Shown: positions 49,360 to 60,881, numbered from the stretch's first letter. The stretch: 64,000 nucleotides of DNA from Pyrococcus yayanosii CH1 (GCF_000215995.1 NC_015680.1:620001-684000); one strand, 5' to 3'. Translations and numbers: made by a program. The notes: generated by a model not told the origin, from the sequence alone.

Positions 49360-52300
49360 TCACCTCTTCGAGTCTTCATTTTTGGGAACAAATATTAATC
49401 CGGCCACTATATGGGGATTAACACCTTCAATTCCGGGCTCTCCTCTAGTTTCTACTCTCTTTTTCCATCCTGGAATGTTATACTTTTCGATTAGTACCTC
49501 ACAAGCTTTGATTATATCCTCGGTTCTAGCATTGGGGCTTATTTCTTTGAGGGCTCTCGCAAAGGGTTCATGATGGGTGTATCCCCATTTGATTAGCTCC
49601 AATAGCTTGGATAAGTATGCTCTTTCTGCTTCACTTTTTGATGTGTGGAGTTTCCTATAGAGCTTGTTCAAGATTCTTTCGACATTTCTGCTCTTTGGTC
49701 TCCTAGCTTTCCCCAATATTAGAGAGCTCTCTTTAATCTCCTTGAGTTTCTTGAAGTTTTCTAACGCTTTATTGGCTGCGCTGTAGTAAATATCCATGTC
49801 TTTAAAGGCATTAAATGGCCTTGTATCTTCATTCAGTTCTGTGGCCTCTAGAAATTCCTCCAGTGACATACTTTCTTGGACCCATGTTTCATTTTGTTTT
49901 CTGTAGATGAAGTACTGTGAAATAATTCCATCACTACAAACAAAGAACGCCAAATAGTCCTCTCCCTCGTATTTAGCCACGCTCCTCATTGAGTATTTCT
50001 TCTTTAATCTCTCAAATAGCTCCTTATGTTTTTCGCTAAATTCCCTGACCAACTTCTCTGCTAGGGTTGTAATTGAAAAAATGTCGCTCGCTTTTTCTAG
50101 ACTTTCTATATCTCCCTTGTAAATTGCCTCAAGGGCAGATGGGTTCCATTCTTCACTCTCTTCAAGTATCTTGCCATCGGCCCCAAGTGCCATATTAAAT
50201 TCCCTTATCCTCTTTCTGACTTTTTCTAGTAAACCTAGGTTCTCTTCTAGTGCCATTTCGGGGAAGAAGTTATACACAAAAATCACATCGTGCTCAGTCC
50301 CTATCCTGTCCACCCTTCCGATTCTTTGAATTAGTTTTATCGGTGTCCAGTGCAGGTCATAGTTCACAACGACATTTGCATCCTGAAGGTTAAGTCCCTC
50401 ACTGAGGATATCCGTTGAAATTAGGATATCTATTTCTTCATTTTTTTCTATTGAGATTCCATTTGCTATCGGGGCAAAGCGTTTTATTTTATCACTAATT
50501 CCTTTTGTTTTGGAACTAACCATCTCGATTTTATACTTCTCAGTATAGCCGAGCTTCTTCAATCCCCTATATATCCATTGGACGGTTTCTTCGAATTCGC
50601 TGAATATCAGAATTTTCTTCCTGCCTTCCTTGAAGTTCTCGTCGATTATCGAAGCAAGCTTCATCAACTTGGGATCTTTCCTTGGATCTATCTCGATCTC
50701 CTCCTTTAATGGCCTTAACACTTTCTCCATGGCCTTTAATTTTTTCAGGTCATATTCTAGGTCAGATATTAGCTCTGCCAATCTGAAGGCACCTGGCCTA
50801 TATTCGGAGACTTTCTTTTCTTTCAGTTCTTCAATGTAGGCTATCACTTCCTCCTCGCTTAGCACGTGAGGCTCTTTGCCGTCCCTAACACCAAGGAGAA
50901 TGTCATCAAACTCATCACCTGCAGGTATGAAGTTGTGCTTTACAAACCTCAGGAAGTTTTCCGTTTTGATAATATCCCTCTTGAGGGTTTGATACATTGA
51001 ATACCATGAGCTTTCGAGGCGTTTAAGATAGAGGATCTTTTCTATACCTCGTAAAGCTCTTCCTGCGGCAGATAATTCTGAATAGGGACTCTTATCTCTA
51101 AATTGAGGCTTAACATAACGATAGAGATCAAATCTAGCATATTTCATTGAGCTTATTCCAGCCAAGAGCAGAGTATATATGTCCGTTGGGTAAATTTCAG
51201 AATCTTGGGCAATTATATCTATAAGATCCTTTGGCACGTTCTCTATCTGATATACATCGGAAATTCTATATTCCGCAACATTCAACTTCCTTTCTGGAAA
51301 GCATATCTTTTTGTTTCGTATTTTTATGCAGTTGCCCTTTCCTCCATAGAGCTTAAGTATGTCATGCCTAGTTCTTCTAATCATAATTTCCCTAAGGACG
51401 TATGAGGGGTCCAACTCGCCGTTTTCAATTGCCCGTATTAGATCATCCCATGTTTGAGGAGCTATTGGAAATGGATGCCTCTTTTCAGGCCTAAACAGGC
51501 GTATTTGGTTGATTATGTCTCTATATCTCTTCCGGTATGGTGTTGCTGTCAATAATACTACCTTCTTGCCCATTAGTAGCTCTTGGAGATTCCGATATGA
51601 CTTTGTGGAAGGGTTAGTGTAGTGATGTGATTCATCGACGAGCACTATCCCCACCAGATTCCTGATGTATTCTTCCATATCCTTGTAATTCTCGGGTGAC
51701 AACTCTCTTCTAGGCAAAAGGCCCGATGAGAATACTCTTCCCTCTATGTTGAAAGCCTTAAGTAACTCTTCCCAATACTTAACTAGCTCTGGAGGTGCTA
51801 TCACGGCTACTTTATTAGGGCGCCCTTGGAGTAAGTTCAAAAGGGAAAAGTGCTCCAATATTGCCAGTCCGATATAGCTCTTTCCCAGTCCAACAACATC
51901 GCTTATGAGAACTCCATCGTACTTGTTCACTATCGCGATTGCCCTTTTGACCGCGTCAAGCTGGAAATCATATAAGACATCCCCGAGTGTCCTGATTAGG
52001 AAGCCCGTTTCACTTTCGAGAACGTCTTTGTAAAGTTCGTAAAGCCCTCTTATGAAGACTTCATAAGGATTAGGGAATGTACCAGGCTTTTGGCCGACCC
52101 AACTATCGTTTATCACCTTCATTATATAGGGATTAAACTCCTCTGCCTTCTTCCATAAGTCCTCGAACCATTGTTTCAATGTTTCAAAATGAACTGAGAA
52201 TAATGGGGCGTTCAGTTCGGTATTAGCAGAAAGCCCGTGGATTGTAAAATTACTTGAACCAACGAGTCCAATTCCAGCGATGCTACCTCTGCTTGGGTGG

Positions 52301-52779
52301 AAGAGGTACGCCTTTGCGTGCATGTACTCCTTAGCATAGATCCTTATTTCAAGACTGCCACTTTCCAACCACTTCACAAGTCTGGTCAAGAGAATCTCAT
52401 TGTCTTTTGTGTGCTCCATAAAGTTGGTCGCTTTTTCAAGAGTCTCTGATTGCTTTTCAAGGTTGGACTTGGATTTATCTAGGCTAGCCTTTCTTTTTCT
52501 TAAGGCCTCCAAGGAATGATACGCCATAAGGAGCTGCTCATACGTTTCTCTATTGGTCTGGCTCCCAATTAGTATTCTCATCCTACCACCCTTGGAGAAG
52601 AAATCGTCCAGTTCATCTTGCAGTTCCCCGAGGCCACTTATGTATAGATAACCAACGGCAATGTCTATCTGCCGGTAGTCGCCAGAGGTAAGGGCCTCTT
52701 TGAGAACATCAAGCAGGGTAACATTGCGGTTATCGACAATACCATACTTGGTTAATATGCCAATCGCGGACTCAGACAT
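49360..52779 (-). CDS. PLD-domain SNF2-type helicase of the defence island
   Basis: A 1139-residue protein. Residues 1-180 form a phospholipase D-like domain with an HxK motif (His154-Ala-Lys156) and SSN at 175-177, as in PLD nucleases, though only one full motif is seen. Then comes a superfamily 2 helicase: Walker A SDVVGLGKSY, DExH box VDESHHY, motif III LLTATPYRKRY, and the C-terminal SEGLNLQDANVVVNYD with LIQRIGRVDRIG. This fusion is common beside large adenine methyltransferases in phage-defence loci. The ATG at 52779 follows a perfect GAGGTGATC. AT-rich codons set it apart from moeA, which follows after 5 nt. Confidence 0.88.
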   Translation of the reverse strand: MSESAIGILTKYGIVDNRNVTLLDVLKEALTSGDYRQIDIAVGYLYISGLGELQDELDDFFSKGGRMRILIGSQTNRETYEQLLMAYHSLEALRKRKASLDKSKSNLEKQSETLEKATNFMEHTKDNEILLTRLVKWLESGSLEIRIYAKEYMHAKAYLFHPSRGSIAGIGLVGSSNFTIHGLSANTELNAPLFSVHFETLKQWFEDLWKKAEEFNPYIMKVINDSWVGQKPGTFPNPYEVFIRGLYELYKDVLESETGFLIRTLGDVLYDFQLDAVKRAIAIVNKYDGVLISDVVGLGKSYIGLAILEHFSLLNLLQGRPNKVAVIAPPELVKYWEELLKAFNIEGRVFSSGLLPRRELSPENYKDMEEYIRNLVGIVLVDESHHYTNPSTKSYRNLQELLMGKKVVLLTATPYRKRYRDIINQIRLFRPEKRHPFPIAPQTWDDLIRAIENGELDPSYVLREIMIRRTRHDILKLYGGKGNCIKIRNKKICFPERKLNVAEYRISDVYQIENVPKDLIDIIAQDSEIYPTDIYTLLLAGISSMKYARFDLYRYVKPQFRDKSPYSELSAAGRALRGIEKILYLKRLESSWYSMYQTLKRDIIKTENFLRFVKHNFIPAGDEFDDILLGVRDGKEPHVLSEEEVIAYIEELKEKKVSEYRPGAFRLAELISDLEYDLKKLKAMEKVLRPLKEEIEIDPRKDPKLMKLASIIDENFKEGRKKILIFSEFEETVQWIYRGLKKLGYTEKYKIEMVSSKTKGISDKIKRFAPIANGISIEKNEEIDILISTDILSEGLNLQDANVVVNYDLHWTPIKLIQRIGRVDRIGTEHDVIFVYNFFPEMALEENLGLLEKVRKRIREFNMALGADGKILEESEEWNPSALEAIYKGDIESLEKASDIFSITTLAEKLVREFSEKHKELFERLKKKYSMRSVAKYEGEDYLAFFVCSDGIISQYFIYRKQNETWVQESMSLEEFLEATELNEDTRPFNAFKDMDIYYSAANKALENFKKLKEIKESSLILGKARRPKSRNVERILNKLYRKLHTSKSEAERAYLSKLLELIKWGYTHHEPFARALKEISPNARTEDIIKACEVLIEKYNIPGWKKRVETRGEPGIEGVNPHIVAGLIFVPKNEDSKR

Positions 52780-52860
52780 TAGGATCACCTCAGTATTAAG
52801 TCTGGCATGTGGATATTAATTTTCTGGAATGAAAACCTAAACGGAAGACGTAGTATTAAC

Positions 52861-53199
52861 ACACTGTTTATGAGCAGTCAAGACTTTCTCAATTTTGTGC
52901 TTTTGATTCTCTCTACCAGTTTCATGTTTCAGTTTCATCTTTAGTTTCTCTCAGGGAGTTTTGAGGGGGAATCGGGCACGATATTAAAGAGTTCAGATAA
53001 GGGGACTTTTCCTTTCTCTCGTTTTTGCTCTTCTGCTTTTGTTTGTTCAGTTGAATTATTTCCATAATCATTTGTTATAAACCAACTACATCCATTCCTA
53101 ATTGTCGTAGTCAGTAAGATGGCATCATGGGCTGTTTCTTAGATAATTTAAGTGTGAAATTTGGCATGTAATTTTTAAATAGTTTGGAGTTTGTTTTAA
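52861..53199. other. AT-rich gap with no gene seen
   Basis: Between the helicase start and the structured segment about 400 nt are AT-rich with stops in all frames. No ribosome-binding site with a usable frame was found. The helicase promoter must be here; TATA-like stretches are too many to choose one. Confidence 0.5.
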
Positions 53200-53395
53200 G
53201 GTGTCATGGCAGTCTCCGGTATGTGGGGTTTTAAGCCCGAATGGGGACTGGAAAATGGAAGATGTGGGGAGTTACCGTTCCCCCCGAAAGCCCTCCAATG
53301 AAGATGGGAGGCTGGAAGGTCAGCCGTAACGAGCCTTACGAACTTTACACAAGTTACGGCTAACCAGAACGGACGCAATCCGTAATCCAAAACTA
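53200..53395 (+). ncRNA. Structured GC-rich segment, possible IS200/IS605 tnpB 3' end or ncRNA
   Basis: In an AT-rich gap this GC-rich stretch can fold into four successive hairpins on the plus strand. They are CAGTCTCC with GGGGACTG (53210-53250), GGGGA with TTCCCC (about 53266-53284), GCCCTCC with GGAGGC (about 53289-53311), and the perfect AGCCGTAAC with GTTACGGCT (about 53321-53361). A TATA-like ATTTTTAAATAG lies about 25 nt upstream. One frame reads through the first three stems and stops at the fourth (ends RLEGQP), as the tail of a TnpB transposase overlapping its guide RNA would. Identity is inferred only. Confidence 0.4.
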
Positions 53396-53518
53396 ATTTT
53401 TGGATAAACCTCGTCATCTACCGCATCATTGACCACAGCAACATGAGCTTTGAGGTCATTAAGATGGCTTTGAACTATGTCCCAGAATATTGTCACCCTC
53501 TTTTAAGGCTTCAATAAG
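53385..53518 (+). other. Possible gene fragment on the plus strand
   Basis: One frame stays open for about 43 codons and reads like protein (NLVIYRIIDHSNMSFEVIKM, then ALNYVPEYCHPLLRLQ) before its stop. It has no ribosome site and the upstream end runs into the structured segment. It could be what is left of a gene cut by an insertion. Not recognised. Confidence 0.3.
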
Positions 53519-53540
53519 CACATAAGAGTAACTAAATGCC

Positions 53541-53986
53541 TTAAATCGCTCTAACCGTATTTATTTTATCAATAACTTCCCCGGGAACTACCAAAACGGC
53601 ACAGTATCTTACTTTCTTTTCACTTTCTAAACCAAAAACGGGCATCAGTTCTTTTTTCAAAATTCTCAGAGTTTGAGGAAACTTGCCCTGGAGGCTTTCA
53701 CGAATGTTTTTCTTAGCTGCATCATTGATCTTCTTGAGTTCCACTACAAGTGCTGTAAATTCATCATTCTTAGAATTAGAGTTCTAGGGGCCACAGTCCT
53801 TATGAAATAGTTAACATCTCTAATGATATAATCTCGTGCAATTTCGTCAAGCATCACAAGCTGGGTGTACAGTGACTTGAGGGTGTATGAGTTTCCAGAG
53901 TTTGGAGGGCCAAGTAGCACGGTTATATCTCCAAGCTCTAGTTCGGCATCTTTTAATGGGTCCAAGTTTTTGATAGAAATCTTCAT
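53541..53986 (-). pseudogene. ATPase remnant with damaged Walker A, frameshifted
   Basis: The first 80 codons, from an ATG at 53986 after GGGTGAGAGC, start MKISIKNLDPLKDAELELGD and have a Walker A-like GPPNSGNSYT where the invariant Lys is Asn. This is the N terminus of an SMC/AAA-type ATPase that should be several hundred residues long. The frame then stops. In the next frame, open from just upstream, comes DEFTALVVELKKINDAAKKN and on to 53541; one added base near 53773-53780 would join the parts. The second part has a strand-ELK-helix pattern like PD-(D/E)xK nucleases. The gene is truncated and very likely inactive as an ATPase. Confidence 0.62.
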
Positions 53987-53993
53987 TAAGCTC

Positions 53994-54188
53994 TCACCCT
54001 CGAAGGGTACTCAGCTTTGCTTTTATTCTTTTTAACATTTCGGAGAGCCACCTTAAAACGGCATTCATTAAACTTTTGAGAGAACTCTTTAAGCCCATTT
54101 CTGGCGGCTTTTTGAAGCACTGTTTGTACCGCCGATTGATTCCGAGGATGTATTCATCGCAACGAGTCCAGTAGGGGAGTAAAGTCAA
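53994..54188 (-). CDS. Small ORF, 64 codons, in the defence island
   Basis: Starts with TTG overlapping the stop of the 239-residue gene by 4 nt (TTGA) and ends 7 nt before the ATPase remnant. It is basic with a C-terminal amphipathic helix (SEMLKRIKAKLSTLRG). Not recognised; it may be a real small component or a fragment from the same decay that hit the ATPase. Confidence 0.4.
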   Translation of the reverse strand: MTLLPYWTRCDEYILGINRRYKQCFKKPPEMGLKSSLKSLMNAVLRWLSEMLKRIKAKLSTLRG

Positions 54189-54904
54189 ATTGTTTCTTTA
54201 GATTTCTGAGAAGCGCTCTTTTGTTTTGATTTAAACTTCTTAGACTCGGCAAAGAACTCTTTGAGACATCTCTCTAAAAATTTAGCAACAAATTCCCTGT
54301 ATTCCTTGTCCTTTAATCCAATGCGGTGGTTTAACTCATCAAGTCCAGTCTGCTTGTTGAATTCATTGAGATACTCTGAAAATTTCTGTTGAAAGTGCAA
54401 TTGATTCTTCGTCTGGTGGAATATTGGCCACACCTTAACCTGCCTTGAGAGTAACTCGGTGTCTATTTTCTTTTCTTTAACAGCGCTTAGAATTCCCTTA
54501 ATGTAAACCCACTCAGCGGGCGAAAAGAGCTCTTTGAACTCGTCTTGATAAGTGAGTATTGTTTTGGAGAGTGACCTAATGCTCTCAAGGAGTTCATGGT
54601 AGTTTCTGGAAATGTTCTCAATTAGCTGTTTGGCCTTTGCATCCGGATCGAGAGGCTCAAAAAGGAGTGAATAGAAGAAGTTCGCCCCAAATGCTAGGAT
54701 TACAGCATCTGAAAGCCTGTCAACGGCTGTTTCGGCTCTTTTTACGTCATCTTCAATGAGTCTCCAGAGGATGTCTTTGAGCTTTTTCTTTTCCCTTGCA
54801 TCTTTTAGGAGTTTGAGTAGAGTGACGAATTGGCTAATAAAGGAAATGCCAGTTTGGATGTCCGAAAGAGGAAGGTTCGAGGAAATAACATCACCCCCAT
54901 TCAC
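54185..54904 (-). CDS. Helical protein of unknown family, next to the KwaB-like gene
   Basis: A 239-residue, mostly alpha-helical protein. It has a hydrophobic stretch DAVILAFGANFFYSLLF around residues 66-82 that could touch a membrane, and a Lys/Ser-rich tail (SKKFKSKQKSASQKSKETI). The GTG start is 5 nt after the KwaB-like stop, with a distant GAGGAA as ribosome site. I do not know the family. Its position makes it a candidate third component of the Kiwa-like unit. Confidence 0.65.
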   Translation of the reverse strand: MNGGDVISSNLPLSDIQTGISFISQFVTLLKLLKDAREKKKLKDILWRLIEDDVKRAETAVDRLSDAVILAFGANFFYSLLFEPLDPDAKAKQLIENISRNYHELLESIRSLSKTILTYQDEFKELFSPAEWVYIKGILSAVKEKKIDTELLSRQVKVWPIFHQTKNQLHFQQKFSEYLNEFNKQTGLDELNHRIGLKDKEYREFVAKFLERCLKEFFAESKKFKSKQKSASQKSKETI

Positions 54905-54909
54905 ACTGG

Positions 54910-55941
54910 CTATCTTATTTCCTCGGGCTTTCCTTTGAATATGTGCTGGTTATTCATTGTCTTTCCAAATCTGGCACCAATAATACTAAGGACTTCCCTA
55001 ACAGCTTTGATGTATTCTTCACTGTTAGGAGAAGGTAGTAGTACCTTTTGATTATTCTCATCAATATCAAAAGAGACATCCCTAAACTTCTTCTTTACTT
55101 CTTTGAAGTCATTGATAGTAACTTCGTTCATGTATTTAGCAGTCACGGGGTTCAACAACATTTTATGTAGCTGCCTATTTCCCTCAACCGTAGCCTTGAG
55201 ATTCGCTAAGTCTTCCTCAGATAATAATTGAGGTAATGTGCGACATTGTCCCAATATCCCCATAGCTTTTTCTTTCTGGTATTCATAGACGTCCAAAAGT
55301 GCCTCAAAATTGGACTTGTTCCAGATTATTCCCCAAGATTGTGTGGGATTGTCTTCCTGATCAAATTTAACAACAAAAATAAAATCGGTAGAGATATCCA
55401 ACTCGATACCTTCTATTTCTTCAACAGAGTTGAATAATATGCCTCTGTGAACTAGTCCTCCTTTAAGCAATTTCTTCTTTTTTAGAACTTTCGATTTAGA
55501 CAATTTCTTCGCATATCCAATTGCATAGTTTTCTGAGCGAAGATAGAAAAGATAACCCCAAAGATTTGTTTCTAAGGTTTTGGGGGCTCTTTCTTGTCTA
55601 GAGTCTGAATCTAACTTAAGAACTTCTACGAAATCTTGCCAATACGGAAAATTCTCGGATGTTAGTTCTACATAACAAGGAAGTTCATCAATGTCTGGAT
55701 GGTAGGAAGGTAAGTTATTCTCCCCCTGAGTGTTCAAAGTCATAGAAATGTAATTTGATAATATTTCCTTGAGATTTTCAGCGACGTCATCGGTTATTTC
55801 GGCAGGGTAAAACAAGTACCGGTATCTTTTATTAGTGCTTTCACTATCTTCACTTTGCTTACGTAGGGGATATCGTTTAATAATAAGCATTTGCGGGGTT
55901 CCTTCTATTTCGGGAAACTGAACATTAACTCTTTGGCTCAT
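54910..55941 (-). CDS. KwaB-like protein (DUF4868 type)
   Basis: A 343-residue soluble protein. The stretch TDFIFVVKFDQE, then SWGIIWNKSNFEALLDVYEYQKEKA, resembles the DUF4868 signature in KwaB of the Kiwa phage-defence system: a strand reporting a sensed state, an nK..Fe motif, then a helix. Length is close to bacterial KwaB (about 315). The strongest support is the partner: a small four-helix membrane gene immediately upstream overlapping by 4 nt, exactly the kwaA-kwaB layout. Direct homology was not tested. AT-rich codon use marks it as part of the island. Confidence 0.6.
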   Translation of the reverse strand: MSQRVNVQFPEIEGTPQMLIIKRYPLRKQSEDSESTNKRYRYLFYPAEITDDVAENLKEILSNYISMTLNTQGENNLPSYHPDIDELPCYVELTSENFPYWQDFVEVLKLDSDSRQERAPKTLETNLWGYLFYLRSENYAIGYAKKLSKSKVLKKKKLLKGGLVHRGILFNSVEEIEGIELDISTDFIFVVKFDQEDNPTQSWGIIWNKSNFEALLDVYEYQKEKAMGILGQCRTLPQLLSEEDLANLKATVEGNRQLHKMLLNPVTAKYMNEVTINDFKEVKKKFRDVSFDIDENNQKVLLPSPNSEEYIKAVREVLSIIGARFGKTMNNQHIFKGKPEEIR

Positions 55942-56480
55942 GTTGTTTCACCCTCATTCTTGTGTTGGATAAATATGTTAGAGTTCTCATCAATACAATA
56001 TGCTGTTAAGAATAATTCTTCGTTTCTCTTAAGGTTTTCTTTAGAAAGTAGTATCCCATCTTTATTATTAATAGTACATAGGTAGAGATTGTAGCCGAAA
56101 ATTAACTTGAGTAGTGGATTAACAGCAAACAGGGAGGTTGAAAGATACAGAGAAAATATCACTAAGAGGAGAATAGCCATGGAGATAATGTCGTTTACAG
56201 TTTTTACTGCTCCTATGAACGGAACTATGTACGTGACTATGAACCCCACATACTGATCATTAAGGTCTCTGTCAATTTTGACCTTTATTGGCTTTCCCGA
56301 GAACTTTCGTATTGAACAGAGCACTGACCAAGACAGCAACAAAATAAAAGCAAATAAGATCGTCCCAGCAAAGAGTCCCCACTTCAGCGGGAGGTTCTTT
56401 ATGAGAAGTACCACAAAAAGAGGAAAGTAAGCTAATGACCCAAGGATAATTTTTGCCCAAGATGTGAGCAAATGCCTCAC
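55938..56480 (-). CDS. KwaA-like four-helix membrane protein
   Basis: A 180-residue membrane protein. Four hydrophobic helices lie at about residues 10-27, 34-54, 77-93 and 97-130, followed by a cytoplasmic tail with NPLLKLIFGYNLYLCTINNKDGILLSK. Size and helix number fit KwaA, the membrane sensor of Kiwa. GTG at 56480 overlaps the methyltransferase stop (GTGA); a TTG nine bases on, better spaced from GAGGTGA, is an alternative. It overlaps the KwaB-like start by 4 nt. Confidence 0.58.
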   Translation of the reverse strand: MRHLLTSWAKIILGSLAYFPLFVVLLIKNLPLKWGLFAGTILFAFILLLSWSVLCSIRKFSGKPIKVKIDRDLNDQYVGFIVTYIVPFIGAVKTVNDIISMAILLLVIFSLYLSTSLFAVNPLLKLIFGYNLYLCTINNKDGILLSKENLKRNEELFLTAYCIDENSNIFIQHKNEGETT

Positions 56481-59400
56481 CTCTTCTTTTTCTTATTTGA
56501 GAAAGTCTTTGCTTTAGCAAGCCTTTGCTTTACAAGCTCCACAACGGCCCTGTAAACCTCAAGCTGCTCTTCTTCAGTTAAGCCAAGAACTTCAAAGATA
56601 ATCCTGTCAAGCTCACGGCGGTCAGGCATTACCTTGTCCAAGCTAACGTCGTCTGGATTGATGTTACTGAGATCACGGTTGGGCTTCGGAAGGCCAAGCT
56701 CCTCGAAGATGGACTTGATTTCGCGGTTTGCCATGCGGTTGAAGGCGTGGAGGAGGCGTTGAATTTGACTCTGTGAGAATATTTTCGGATTCACAACAAG
56801 AATTTCAGCAGTCTCATAAACTTTGAAGTCCAAAGCACCTTCTCCTAAATTAGCTCTTCCTGTAAGTTCAATGATTATTGGAACTAGAGTTGTATTTAAT
56901 ACACTGGCTAAAAGCTCTGATGAGATATCCAGTTTTTTGTAGATGTCATAAAGCCGCGCATCACATAGAGCAATATCATTTAACCAGAAAGGAAACCTGA
57001 TGTTGTAACTCATCATGGAGGCCAAACTTCCGATTTTTCTGTCCCCTAACGCCCACCATGGATTTCTTGTTCTACATGTTGGTTTGTTTTGATATTCCTT
57101 GTTCTCTCCCCATTCAATGTAATGCAGTGCGTGTATTTTGTCTCTGTTCTCTAATTCTTCCTTGGAGAGATTGCAGAGGAACACCTTGAACTTCAGGTCT
57201 TCAAGTCTAATCCGATAGGTCTTTATCTCCTGTGGACTCTTAACAACGGGCCTCAAAAACTCCTCCTCGATATAGCCCTCCCAGCCCGCTTTATTCCTCA
57301 CCGCAATTAATCCTTCCTCGGGCTTGTGGACTCTACCACAAATCTTACATATTGGCCACTTTATTGGATTCTTAATTGGTTCCAAATAGAAGAACTCATT
57401 CGCTCCTGTTTTAATCCCAAATCTTACCTCAGCAATCTCCCCAAGCCTCACCAGCTTTCCTTTTCCTTTATCCAGAATCACGTAGAATATCCTTGGCGCT
57501 CTAATCAGTATTCCGCCCCACTTCATGCCCTTGTACTCGCCGGAGATGTTGTAGGTTCCGAGGAGTTGGTTCTTCTTTCCGACCTTAAGGCCGCCCATCT
57601 TTGCAAGCTCCACCGCTTTAACGCTCCTCACCCTCAGTTCATCGTCCTCGTAGCTGTAAACTTCCCCTCCAAAGACCTCAACGCCCTTAACCTTCCCCGC
57701 GTAGCACTCAAGGAGCCTGTCTATTATCCCGCGGCTCAGCCCGTCAAAGTTCCTCTTCAGCAAAACGAAGTTCACGCACTCCTCTCCAACCGTGTTGAAA
57801 AGCTCCTCGGGCTTTCTCGTCAAAACTGTAATCACTGTGTTGACGTCGGCCTGCTCGAAGCTCCTCGTCGTGTAGTCAATCACCGCCCTTAAGTGGGTGA
57901 ATCTCAAGAAGAACTCCTGTAAAGCGGTTCCGTAATCAACGTCAAGCCATGAGTTGGATGTAATGAAAACCAGCGCACCCTTAGGATTGAGCAGGTTGAC
58001 ACCCTGGATGAAAAAGTATGCATAGAGGTCACTTCTAGCTGGGAGCTTCATCTCGTACTTAAACTTCTCCTTGATTATGGTTTCCATATGTTCAATTATC
58101 TTCTTCTTGTACTCCTTCTTGAGTCTCTCCTGCTCCTTTTTGGGGAGCATCTGGAACTCCGCTAAATCGTAATACTCCGGGTAGATTTTTTCCTGCCTTA
58201 CATACGGTGGATTGGCTATCACTATATCAAAACCCCTCTTTTCGAGCATCACGTCTGGAAAGTCCAGCTCCCAGATGAAGGGCGGCTTCTCAAGGGCTGA
58301 GAAGTCCTCCTTTTTGACAGCCTCAAGGAGTAGCTTGACATCTTCCTTTTCCTTAGCCTTCAGCTCTTCCTTGAGGGCATTCTCAAGAAACTCTTGAAGA
58401 GCACCCCACTTGGCTCTCTCAATGTCCCTGAGCGTTACAGGTTTCCCATTTATCTTCTCCCCCATGTAATATGCTTTCACTAGATTCTTGTATGCGACTA
58501 TGGCCTCGCTTGCTCCTTTTTTTGCCCATAGTAATCTAAGGCTCTCACGGAACTTAGCGAGGGGTATCTCGATTATCTTTTTCTTCCCGTTTATTTTAAG
58601 GACAAAGTAAGGTGGCGCTAAGGAGTCACCAACAGCTAGCTTAGTCTCGAGGTTTGGAAGAATTGGCTCATTTGGGATTTCTTCCTCTTTTTCAATTAGT
58701 GCTAACCAAAGTCTCAGTTTGGCTACCCGTACCGCCCATTCCTTAATGTCAACTCCGTAAATGTTATCCCTGATTATGGCGAGCTTTCTTTCGTAATCCA
58801 CTTTTACCCTTGCCTTCTCGTAGAGTTCCATAAGAAGATGGAACATTCCCACAAGAAATGCCCCACTCCCAGCCGCTGGATCGACTATTTTAACATCTTC
58901 AAGAGCACTAATTAACCCCCTTGGTAGCGGTCTTTTCTCCCACTCATGAAGCGGCGTAAATACAAACTCCCTCAAAAGCTCGTCCTCAACCTTTGTGTTT
59001 CTCCTTAGATACTCATAAATCGCCATCCTACACATGAAGTCTACCTCTGCTCTCGGCGTGTAGAAGATTCCCGAAACCCTTCGTTCTTCTTCCTCCAAAG
59101 CTTTCTCTTCCTCAGCAATCAAAGACTCGTAAATCTTTCCAAGCATTGCTGGATCAACTGCAACCTCAACCTCATAAGGCGTCTCTTCGGTTACGGTAAA
59201 GTTGTACTCTTCAAAGAAATCGAATATTAGCTCCTTTAATAGCTCATCTGGAAGTGATGTAATTATTTCATCTAAATCAACGCCTCCAACTTTAATGTGG
59301 TTGAAAAGACCGCCGTTGAAGTAGGGAACCATTCTAAATGCGTAAAATACTGGATCTGGTAACCTTTTGTTGAAATGTCTATCTTGAGCTGGTTTATTCA

Positions 59401-60334
59401 TTACATTTACAAATAGGTTTCTGAGAAAGTCCCTGTAGAATTCCAAATCATCGTAGCCATCTTTTTTCTTGTACTCTTGGTACATTTCCCAGAGCCAGCT
59501 AACAAATCTTTTCTTATTTGTTACTATCTCATCAACTGGATACTTAATTTTCACTTTATCGTTTATGATCCATCCTTTTTTCTGTAGGAAATAAACAAAC
59601 ATCAATCTGTTGAAGAAAGTGTGAGCAAATGTCTTAGCAGCTCTTTCAACGAATATGTCTTTTGGCAATTCCCCCGTGTAAACTTCTTCGAGCTTTTTCC
59701 CGTAGAGCTTCTTTATTACCCCCTTGAGCTTGTAGTGGTACTTCTTGTAATCTTGGAAGAATTCCTCCGTGAGCGGTCTAACGTGCATATATTCGTCAAT
59801 GAACACTTTTATCTGAGAAGCCGGAGGATACTCTTTGAGCTTTTTAATTTCTTCTCCGACCTTTAAAATGCCCTCAATTAGTGTTCTGAATTTTCCGTAG
59901 CTTGGATCTATCACGTAAATATTCGCCTTCGCTACATCAGTTTCACGCCTGTACACGGGAACTAAAAGCTTCCAGTATCCCCCATGTTCAATTATGGTCA
60001 GGAAGTTTGCAAATTCCAAGTTTATAGAGCCCGTGAACTCAACGAGATCTTTTATAATCCCTTGCCTGTACCTCACTGTGTCACTTTTACCCTTTCCCTT
60101 GACGTAGATTATGTAGAATGAGCCATCCTTTGAGGGAGATCTTGCAATTATCTTTGCGAATTCAGTATTTTCCGAAACAAACTTTCTGAAGCTCTCTACT
60201 GGGATGTCTTCATCACTATACTTAAAACCCCACACATCGACGAAAATTCTCCTAAACACATCAATCGCTTCAGATGAGCTTATATTATTCTTGAGTCTGC
60301 TAAAATACCTCTCTTCAATTTGAGTGGGAGTCAT
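56477..60334 (-). CDS. Large Eco57I-like DNA adenine methyltransferase
   Basis: A 1285-residue protein. Motif I is DPAAGSGAF at 485-493 and the catalytic motif IV is NPPY at 708-711, as in N6-adenine methyltransferases. Residues 1-430 form an N-terminal region with no PD-(D/E)xK motif I can see. From about 900 on is a TaqI-like target-recognition region (GLKVGKKNQLLGTYNISGEY, KPTCRTRNPWWALGDRK). It could be a class IIG-like enzyme, a PglX-like BREX methylase or the methylase of a helicase-methylase-ATPase system; the PLD helicase downstream favours the last. The ATG follows GGGGAGATAATA. It starts the minus-strand island operon. Confidence 0.87.
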   Translation of the reverse strand: MTPTQIEERYFSRLKNNISSSEAIDVFRRIFVDVWGFKYSDEDIPVESFRKFVSENTEFAKIIARSPSKDGSFYIIYVKGKGKSDTVRYRQGIIKDLVEFTGSINLEFANFLTIIEHGGYWKLLVPVYRRETDVAKANIYVIDPSYGKFRTLIEGILKVGEEIKKLKEYPPASQIKVFIDEYMHVRPLTEEFFQDYKKYHYKLKGVIKKLYGKKLEEVYTGELPKDIFVERAAKTFAHTFFNRLMFVYFLQKKGWIINDKVKIKYPVDEIVTNKKRFVSWLWEMYQEYKKKDGYDDLEFYRDFLRNLFVNVMNKPAQDRHFNKRLPDPVFYAFRMVPYFNGGLFNHIKVGGVDLDEIITSLPDELLKELIFDFFEEYNFTVTEETPYEVEVAVDPAMLGKIYESLIAEEEKALEEEERRVSGIFYTPRAEVDFMCRMAIYEYLRRNTKVEDELLREFVFTPLHEWEKRPLPRGLISALEDVKIVDPAAGSGAFLVGMFHLLMELYEKARVKVDYERKLAIIRDNIYGVDIKEWAVRVAKLRLWLALIEKEEEIPNEPILPNLETKLAVGDSLAPPYFVLKINGKKKIIEIPLAKFRESLRLLWAKKGASEAIVAYKNLVKAYYMGEKINGKPVTLRDIERAKWGALQEFLENALKEELKAKEKEDVKLLLEAVKKEDFSALEKPPFIWELDFPDVMLEKRGFDIVIANPPYVRQEKIYPEYYDLAEFQMLPKKEQERLKKEYKKKIIEHMETIIKEKFKYEMKLPARSDLYAYFFIQGVNLLNPKGALVFITSNSWLDVDYGTALQEFFLRFTHLRAVIDYTTRSFEQADVNTVITVLTRKPEELFNTVGEECVNFVLLKRNFDGLSRGIIDRLLECYAGKVKGVEVFGGEVYSYEDDELRVRSVKAVELAKMGGLKVGKKNQLLGTYNISGEYKGMKWGGILIRAPRIFYVILDKGKGKLVRLGEIAEVRFGIKTGANEFFYLEPIKNPIKWPICKICGRVHKPEEGLIAVRNKAGWEGYIEEEFLRPVVKSPQEIKTYRIRLEDLKFKVFLCNLSKEELENRDKIHALHYIEWGENKEYQNKPTCRTRNPWWALGDRKIGSLASMMSYNIRFPFWLNDIALCDARLYDIYKKLDISSELLASVLNTTLVPIIIELTGRANLGEGALDFKVYETAEILVVNPKIFSQSQIQRLLHAFNRMANREIKSIFEELGLPKPNRDLSNINPDDVSLDKVMPDRRELDRIIFEVLGLTEEEQLEVYRAVVELVKQRLAKAKTFSNKKKKR

Positions 60335-60431
60335 TATTATCTCCCCACTAGTTCTAAACCCAAAGACATAAAACTAAAGTAATAAGGAGTTTTTAGGGTT
60401 ATCGGTTGAAAGTGTCTAGGTGGTGAGATAT

Positions 60432-60881
60432 ATGGAAGAGGAAATAGTGGGAGTAACATTTCCAGTGCCAAAGCCCCTGTTAGATAGGATCCTAAAAGAA
60501 GGCAAAACAGTTTTTGTGAAGCCCTCAACGCTTAGAGTAAAGCCTGGAATGAAAATCGTTTTCTATGCTTCCCGAGAGAATCAGGGATTCCACGGAGAGG
60601 CAGAAGTTGAAAGCGTTAGGCATTTCAAAAACATCGAAGAGATCATTAAAGAGTATAGGAACGAGCTCTTCCTAACACCAGAAGAGCTCAGGAAATATGA
60701 GAGAGACAGACGGAGGTGGCATTCACGCGGGAAAAGGCCCAGGCCATGGATGGTGCTTAAACTTAAAGGCATCAGAAGGTACCCAAGGATAGTAAAGCCC
60801 AAGCGCTTCATCGCGGTCTCCGGAAGATACATCAGAGAGAGCGAGTATCAAGAAATTCTCGCCAAGGTGGGTTTCAAGTAG
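60432..60881 (+). CDS. DUF365 family protein
   Basis: A 149-residue archaeal protein of DUF365. It starts EEEIVGVTFPVPKPLLDRILKEGKTVFVKPSTL and contains IVKPKRFIAVSGRYI near the end, both typical. The fold is thought to be PUA/ASCH-like, which would suit nucleic-acid binding; this is inference. ATG at 60432 follows GGTGGTGAGAT. It is divergent from the methyltransferase and marks the right edge of the island. Confidence 0.82.
   Translation: MEEEIVGVTFPVPKPLLDRILKEGKTVFVKPSTLRVKPGMKIVFYASRENQGFHGEAEVESVRHFKNIEEIIKEYRNELFLTPEELRKYERDRRRWHSRGKRPRPWMVLKLKGIRRYPRIVKPKRFIAVSGRYIRESEYQEILAKVGFK

Follow-up and report, generated by a model that had tools for sequence, protein, structure and literature searches.

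Related defence systems

Bacterial Kiwa forms a phage-activated membrane supercomplex in which KwaA senses disturbance of the envelope and KwaB binds entering DNA (PMC12904381). BREX-related systems with auxiliary effectors have been described, and the HKD-helicase effectors of Type-2 BREX-related systems have been proposed to be translocating nucleases (PMC12839542). Defence genes embedded in other systems have been treated under the term 'guilt by embedding' (Payne et al., 2024 preprint, as cited in PMC12988326). Kiwa, the embedding of defence genes, and systems of a methylase with a PLD-helicase have each been known before; what appears to be new is that Kiwa serves in archaea as a cargo that can be exchanged, and that it lies repeatedly behind a modification gene. 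No description of Kiwa inside restriction operons, or exchanged between backbones, was found in a literature search outside which most subscription papers and preprints lay, and a 2026 survey of defence in archaea makes no mention of Kiwa in its main text.

The locus analyzed here, from Pyrococcus yayanosii CH1, shares with Kiwa the KwaA-KwaB gene order with a 4-nt overlap, a membrane-type KwaA, and a KwaB fold matching solved KwaB structures, whereas its pair lies inside a methylase-helicase operon and its KwaB misses the Pfam family PF16162. With the guilt-by-embedding cases, as far as these are summarized in PMC12988326, it has in common independent defence modules within a helicase-methylase locus; it differs in being archaeal, in carrying a known two-gene system as cargo, and in that conflicting trees and a recombinant gene show exchange. 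With Hma and the Type-2 BREX-related (BR) systems it shares an N6-adenine methylase and an HKD-SNF2 helicase as presumed restriction effector, but the genome lacks the DUF499 ATPase and no DUF3780 was recognised in the block.

Organization of the block

The window is a stretch of 64,000 nucleotides (620001-684000 of the 1.72-Mb single-contig genome, NC_015680.1), and the analyzed block occupies its positions 49360-60334 on the minus strand. In 1-kb steps the GC content is 37-48% inside the block and mostly 50-55% outside, and the AT-richness relative to both flanks that an earlier note had described is borne out by these values. Read from 60334 to 49360, the order is methylase, KwaA, KwaB, a gene for a 239-aa protein, a decayed stretch, and a PLD-SNF2 helicase, and a divergent DUF365 gene beyond the methylase probably also belongs to the locus. 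The features are as follows.

60420..60881, plus strand: divergent DUF365 gene, likely companion of the locus (Pfam DUF365, 3.2e-40)
56477..60334, minus strand: Eco57I-type N6-adenine DNA methylase, 1285 aa, upstream wall of the slot (Pfam Eco57I, 1.6e-31; DPAAGSG and NPPY motifs)
56795..57457, minus strand: presumed target-recognition region of the methylase, aa 960-1180 (drop in identity between loci)
55938..56480, minus strand: KwaA, 180 aa (12 PADLOC KwaA profiles, best 1.2e-18)
54910..55941, minus strand: divergent KwaB, 343 aa (PADLOC KwaB, 4.5e-9; Foldseek)
54185..54904, minus strand: 239-aa helical accessory protein (relatives in most slots)
54019..54152, minus strand: debris, frameshifted C-terminus of another member (258-type) of the 239-aa family (47-88% identity to intact copies, two frames)
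53744..53986, minus strand: debris, N-terminal end of an AAA (AAA_15) ATPase (62-65% identity to the 563-aa protein of L070 and the 586-aa protein of L074)
53553..53777, minus strand: debris, part of the ATPase's 161-aa partner (86% identity to the 161-aa protein of L074)
52934..53551, minus strand: debris, fragments of a PIN-domain protein (identity to the 216-aa protein of L074 up to 94%, three frames)
53193..53357, plus strand: probable scar of an IS200/IS605 tnpB 3' end (48% identity, E=2e-8, to the C-terminal end of the 393-aa protein of L072)
49360..52788, minus strand: PLD (HKD)-SNF2 helicase, 1142 aa, downstream wall of the slot (Pfam PLDc_2, ResIII, SNF2, Helicase_C)

The methylase, KwaA, KwaB, 239-aa, and helicase genes are intact, all being open with their motifs kept. 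Seven reading frames had been counted, which overstates the number of genes, since the short frames that separate the 239-aa gene from the helicase are debris; the accompanying description of most frames as overlapping or within 10 nt fits the first four genes, with joints of -4, -4, and +5 nt, but not the decayed remainder. The methyltransferase motifs read earlier are in place (DPAAGSG at aa 485, NPPY at aa 708), the helicase gene proposed at the other end is intact with HAK..GSSNF, GLGKS, DESH, and QRIGR, and the PADLOC profiles that name KwaA and KwaB confirm the Kiwa-like pair.

The methylase and helicase walls

Orthologues of the methylase occur in 16 of 94 Thermococcales genomes. PADLOC type IIG profiles match its residues 273-717 at 7.7e-58, and a Pfam search recognised no nuclease domain at its N-terminus. 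Identity between loci remains high in the parts adjoining aa 960-1180 and falls within this presumed target region to 27-63% in most locus pairs, with 83-91% in a few; the target regions of the window, G026, and G076 methylases are 83-90% identical. The region itself has been exchanged between loci. The helicase, whose likely start is the ATG at 52779, matches the PADLOC profile C3a139 (HKD+Snf2) at 1.4e-65, and it is not an equivalog of the phospholipase D-like anti-phage protein NF042964 of NCBIfam, because its match of 2.8e-34 reaches 119 bits against a cut-off of 1100. As debris separates it from the other genes, it may no longer be co-expressed with the rest of the locus.

Assignment of this backbone to Hma/BR was rejected since the DUF499 AAA+ ATPase is missing: DUF499 (PF04465) is absent from the window's genome and from 14 of the 15 other methylase-bearing genomes, and the single match, in G026, lies at a different locus. 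BREX was likewise rejected, neither PglZ nor BrxC nor further core genes being found among the block proteins with PADLOC, Pfam, and NCBIfam, where PglX models gave 64-82 bits against cut-offs of 400-900. The DISARM profiles gave only domain-level helicase and methylase matches to DrmA, DrmD, and DrmMI (NCBIfam DrmD, 111 of 610 bits); this assignment was also set aside, as genes of the DrmA/DrmB/DrmC core are missing and the block holds no other gene of the set.

The Kiwa pair and the 239-aa protein

KwaA has about four hydrophobic segments by hydropathy, and it scores 57 bits with the NCBIfam KwaA equivalog, below the cut-off of 100. KwaB is matched by one PADLOC KwaB profile and has no match to the Pfam KwaB family (DUF4868/PF16162). 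Its AlphaFold model, built from only five sequences, is poor (pLDDT 51); when this low-confidence model was compared by Foldseek with 350,542 PDB chains, the five best matches were all KwaB (9mrx, three chains of 9mtn, and 9nyu; probability 0.95-0.99), with nothing else close. The protein is taken as a divergent KwaB. The slot-type KwaB was found nowhere outside the slot among 396 genomes, and none was found in IMG/VR or in plasmids. Sequence searches of the PDB with alignments of KwaA, KwaB, the 239-aa protein, and a 333-aa protein returned nothing usable.

In four of the five Kiwa slots a protein of 301-333 aa belonging to no known family is encoded directly 3' of kwaB (L003:10122-11123, L070:11775-12689, L075:7171-8076, L078:7297-8244), whereas the window lacks it. 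Among the invariant residues of this protein are GDILFV ... Q-x-K, which recall the core of a PD-(D/E)XK nuclease, and its gene is a candidate third Kiwa gene.

The 239-aa protein is predicted to be helical, and its structure gave no significant PDB match. Matches to the HepT toxin were weak though repeated and were not used. Relatives occur in most slots and also beside loci of prokaryotic Argonaute with AbiE and of DUF1156 methylases; the family was not found in IMG/VR.

Remains of an older cargo

Translated searches resolved positions 52789-54184 into about 1.4 kb of frameshifted, shortened gene fragments with 44-94% identity to intact genes in L070, L073, and L074. The four sources, namely a 258-aa protein, the AAA ATPase, the 161-aa protein, and the PIN protein (PIN domain assigned by Pfam in the L073 copy), stand intact and in the same order in L074, and partly in L070 and L073. 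The Walker A motif of the ATPase fragment reads GPPNSGN, with N in place of lysine, against GPPNSGK in L074, and the protein to which the insertion-sequence scar is related is TnpB/Cas12f-like by Pfam. On these similarities the window holds an intact Kiwa cargo that adjoins the ruins of an older ATPase-PIN cargo.

A variable slot in Thermococcales

Fifteen Thermococcales loci retaining both walls at least in part were compared, and the comparison of gene order proposed in the earlier note showed unrelated modules in the same slot of sister loci. KwaA-KwaB is present in five (the window, L003, L070, L075, and L078); other contents are a metallo-beta-lactamase with OLD (L049, L072, L082), a 601-606-aa protein of no known family (the 604-aa family; L077, L080, and the truncated contig L076), a TIR protein (L074, L081), the AAA ATPase with the 161-aa and PIN proteins (L074; L070 without PIN), an ATPase with RAMA (L071, L074, L077), and, in many loci, AbiEi-AbiEii. 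Some slots hold modules on the reverse strand. Irrespective of cargo, the distance from the methylase to the first slot gene is -4 to +18 nt, and walls, position, and tight joints are constant across four genera.

Outside Thermococcales the methylase and helicase genes can adjoin almost without a gap, for example in Halorubrum and Halorussus, the slot being empty in such haloarchaea; other phyla have one unrelated, varied gene between the two, and in one other archaeon the helicase precedes the methylase. A 38-kb plasmid carries the locus, cargo included, in Thermococcus profundus. The search for a clean empty insertion site yielded none: the block is bordered by moeA and pyk in the window, and comparison with congeners shows no such site because in six of them moeA lies 8-14 kb upstream of pyk, an order opposite to that of the window, and in the seventh the two genes are 75 kb apart. 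The DUF365 gene occurs in 14 of the 16 genomes with the methylase and in 15 of the 78 without it (Fisher p=4e-7, which ignores relatedness).

Conflict between Kiwa and backbone phylogenies

The trees cover the five Kiwa loci only, and the conflict rests on four informative loci plus the window. The methylase and helicase trees agree in grouping {G026,G067} and {G065,G076}, whereas the KwaA tree, the KwaB tree, and their concatenation group {G026,G065} and {G067,G076}; each data set rejects the opposite grouping (AU p 9e-6 to 1e-62). Between G026 and G065, KwaA is 94% identical, compared with 71% for the methylases, 74% for the helicases, and only 54% for the methylase target regions. The kwaB gene of G065 is recombinant, with informative sites resembling G026 in 67 of 77 cases before the breakpoint and 2 of 34 after it (permutation p=0.0005); the same mosaic test detected no breakpoint in the window's own kwaB (p=0.56). 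The conflict is strong and two-sided, in a small sample of five loci. Because the Kiwa and backbone trees conflict, a kwaB is recombinant, unrelated modules fill sister slots, and the target regions differ, the data point to Kiwa as cargo and to two nested systems, not one. The earlier note had left the choice between two nested systems and one undescribed system; nesting is supported, and the single system is weakened.

Kiwa in type I restriction operons

Searching 396 genomes with a KwaA profile identified three more Thermococcales with KwaA, each followed by a KwaB-like protein (in L202 matched by Pfam KwaB at 6.7e-7). In all three, a type I operon holds kwaA-kwaB between its hsdM and hsdS genes, with gmrSD and hsdR following (L202:4320-13001, L203:3953-13001, L204:4064-11058; hsdR was read from sequence in L202 and L203). 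These operons resemble the window in having kwaA-kwaB inside an operon downstream of a methylase gene, and differ in their hsdM/hsdS/hsdR backbone, in the KwaB lineage, and in a 156-aa gene that precedes kwaA, after hsdM, in two of the three. Profile comparison with the window's Kiwa was good for KwaA and weak for KwaB, and the hsd-embedded Kiwa is a distant relative with a different KwaB lineage. A restriction of Kiwa to the methylase-helicase slot is ruled out by these three pairs and is true of the slot-type KwaB lineage alone. The Kiwa pairs found in Thermococcales, eight in number, are all inside restriction-modification operons of two unrelated types, just downstream of the methylase gene; the more distant archaeal locus L205 has KwaAB without a methylase.

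Interpretation of the locus

We consider it quite probable that a two-gene, restriction-like backbone holds interchangeable defence cargo between its genes. As expected from their families, the methylase would mark host DNA and the PLD-SNF2 protein would translocate on and cut unmarked DNA, and the comparison of loci shows the operon interior to be a slot that carries other defence modules, exchanged through recombination, the cargo in the window being Kiwa and the 239-aa helical protein. Kiwa probably acts as published, KwaA sensing the disturbance of the envelope by a virus and KwaB binding entering DNA, and may form an independent, earlier layer that its overlapping genes would let be co-expressed with the methylase; layers acting at different stages need not touch. 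Against this cargo reading, Kiwa stands beside a methylase in eight of eight Thermococcales cases, which is more regular than free shuffling suggests. Its position behind methylases could be functional, or restriction operons could merely be the usual seat of cargo in Thermococcales genomes, and the latter is the simpler reading because the same seats also accept TIR, OLD, and other modules.

One integrated system, in which Kiwa's membrane sensing and DNA binding are coupled to the modification made by the adjacent methylase, KwaB then sparing methylated host DNA or passing entering DNA to the PLD-helicase/nuclease, would account for KwaA lying directly after the methylase in five of five slots, for divergent Kiwa behind hsdM in three other Thermococcales, and for a slot-type KwaB seen nowhere else among 396 genomes; if true, the placement in two unrelated restriction operons would be a real partnership. 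It is nevertheless unlikely: Kiwa has moved between backbones with different target regions, modules of other kinds occupy this position and are joined just as tightly, another gene intervenes between hsdM and kwaA in two of three hsd operons, and KwaAB occurs without a methylase in L205. That the locus is largely a relic, its backbone split by the decayed stretch that follows the 239-aa gene and selection now maintaining just some of the genes, would suit the 1.4 kb of debris with its insertion-sequence scar and the broken methylases or helicases of L072, L074, L079, and L080, but seems very improbable with the methylase, KwaA, KwaB, 239-aa protein, and helicase all open and their motifs retained. 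Defence genes generally cluster, and AbiE and the 258-aa family are also found away from the backbone (L055, L057), as they would be if unrelated genes had piled up by chance in an ordinary island with no special slot; fixed walls, fixed position, and tight joints in four genera, and the empty slots of other lineages, make such an island scarcely credible.

With interchangeable cargo in a restriction-like backbone, the locus would illustrate how archaeal immune layers are assembled and exchanged, the backbone acting as a holder for cassettes that recombine within a family and can be carried by a plasmid. As Kiwa is repeatedly encoded right behind a modification methylase, the way in which KwaB avoids host DNA becomes testable. 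New candidates for testing are the helical family of 239/258 aa, that of the 604-aa protein, and the protein of 301-333 aa after KwaB.

Additional observations on related loci

An EVE-domain gene, of a modified-base reader family, flanks most Thermococcales methylase-helicase loci (L049:17304-17735; equivalents in L003, L070, L071, L073, L075, L077, L078, and L081), and the window's locus showed no such gene alongside it. A module of three reverse-strand genes, for which Pfam gives no match, recurs at L075:8892-10572, L079:5353-7015, L072:5505-7192, and L082:5068-6755, and is the only cargo in L079. The positions L055:1757-8933 hold in a row an integrase, a prokaryotic Argonaute (Piwi), a 255-aa relative of the 239-aa protein, AbiEi, and AbiEii. 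A DUF1156 methylase, a 135-aa protein, a 226-aa relative of the 239-aa protein, and a 178-194-aa protein are found at L057:4362-8822 and L058:1804-6312; since a DUF499 ATPase gene overlaps the start of L058 in G026, the L058-type locus is probably of Hma/BR type, using the same accessory family as the 239-aa protein. Elsewhere in the window's genome, near 1.340 Mb, lie the remains of a second copy of the methylase-helicase locus (L059:10159-12616), in which a fragment from the C-terminus of this methylase is followed by AbiEi and a broken AbiEii. On plasmid NZ_CP014863.1 (L080:1339-5332), the N-terminal part of the methylase lies on the strand opposite to the rest, as if inverted, possibly as a switch or as a broken gene.
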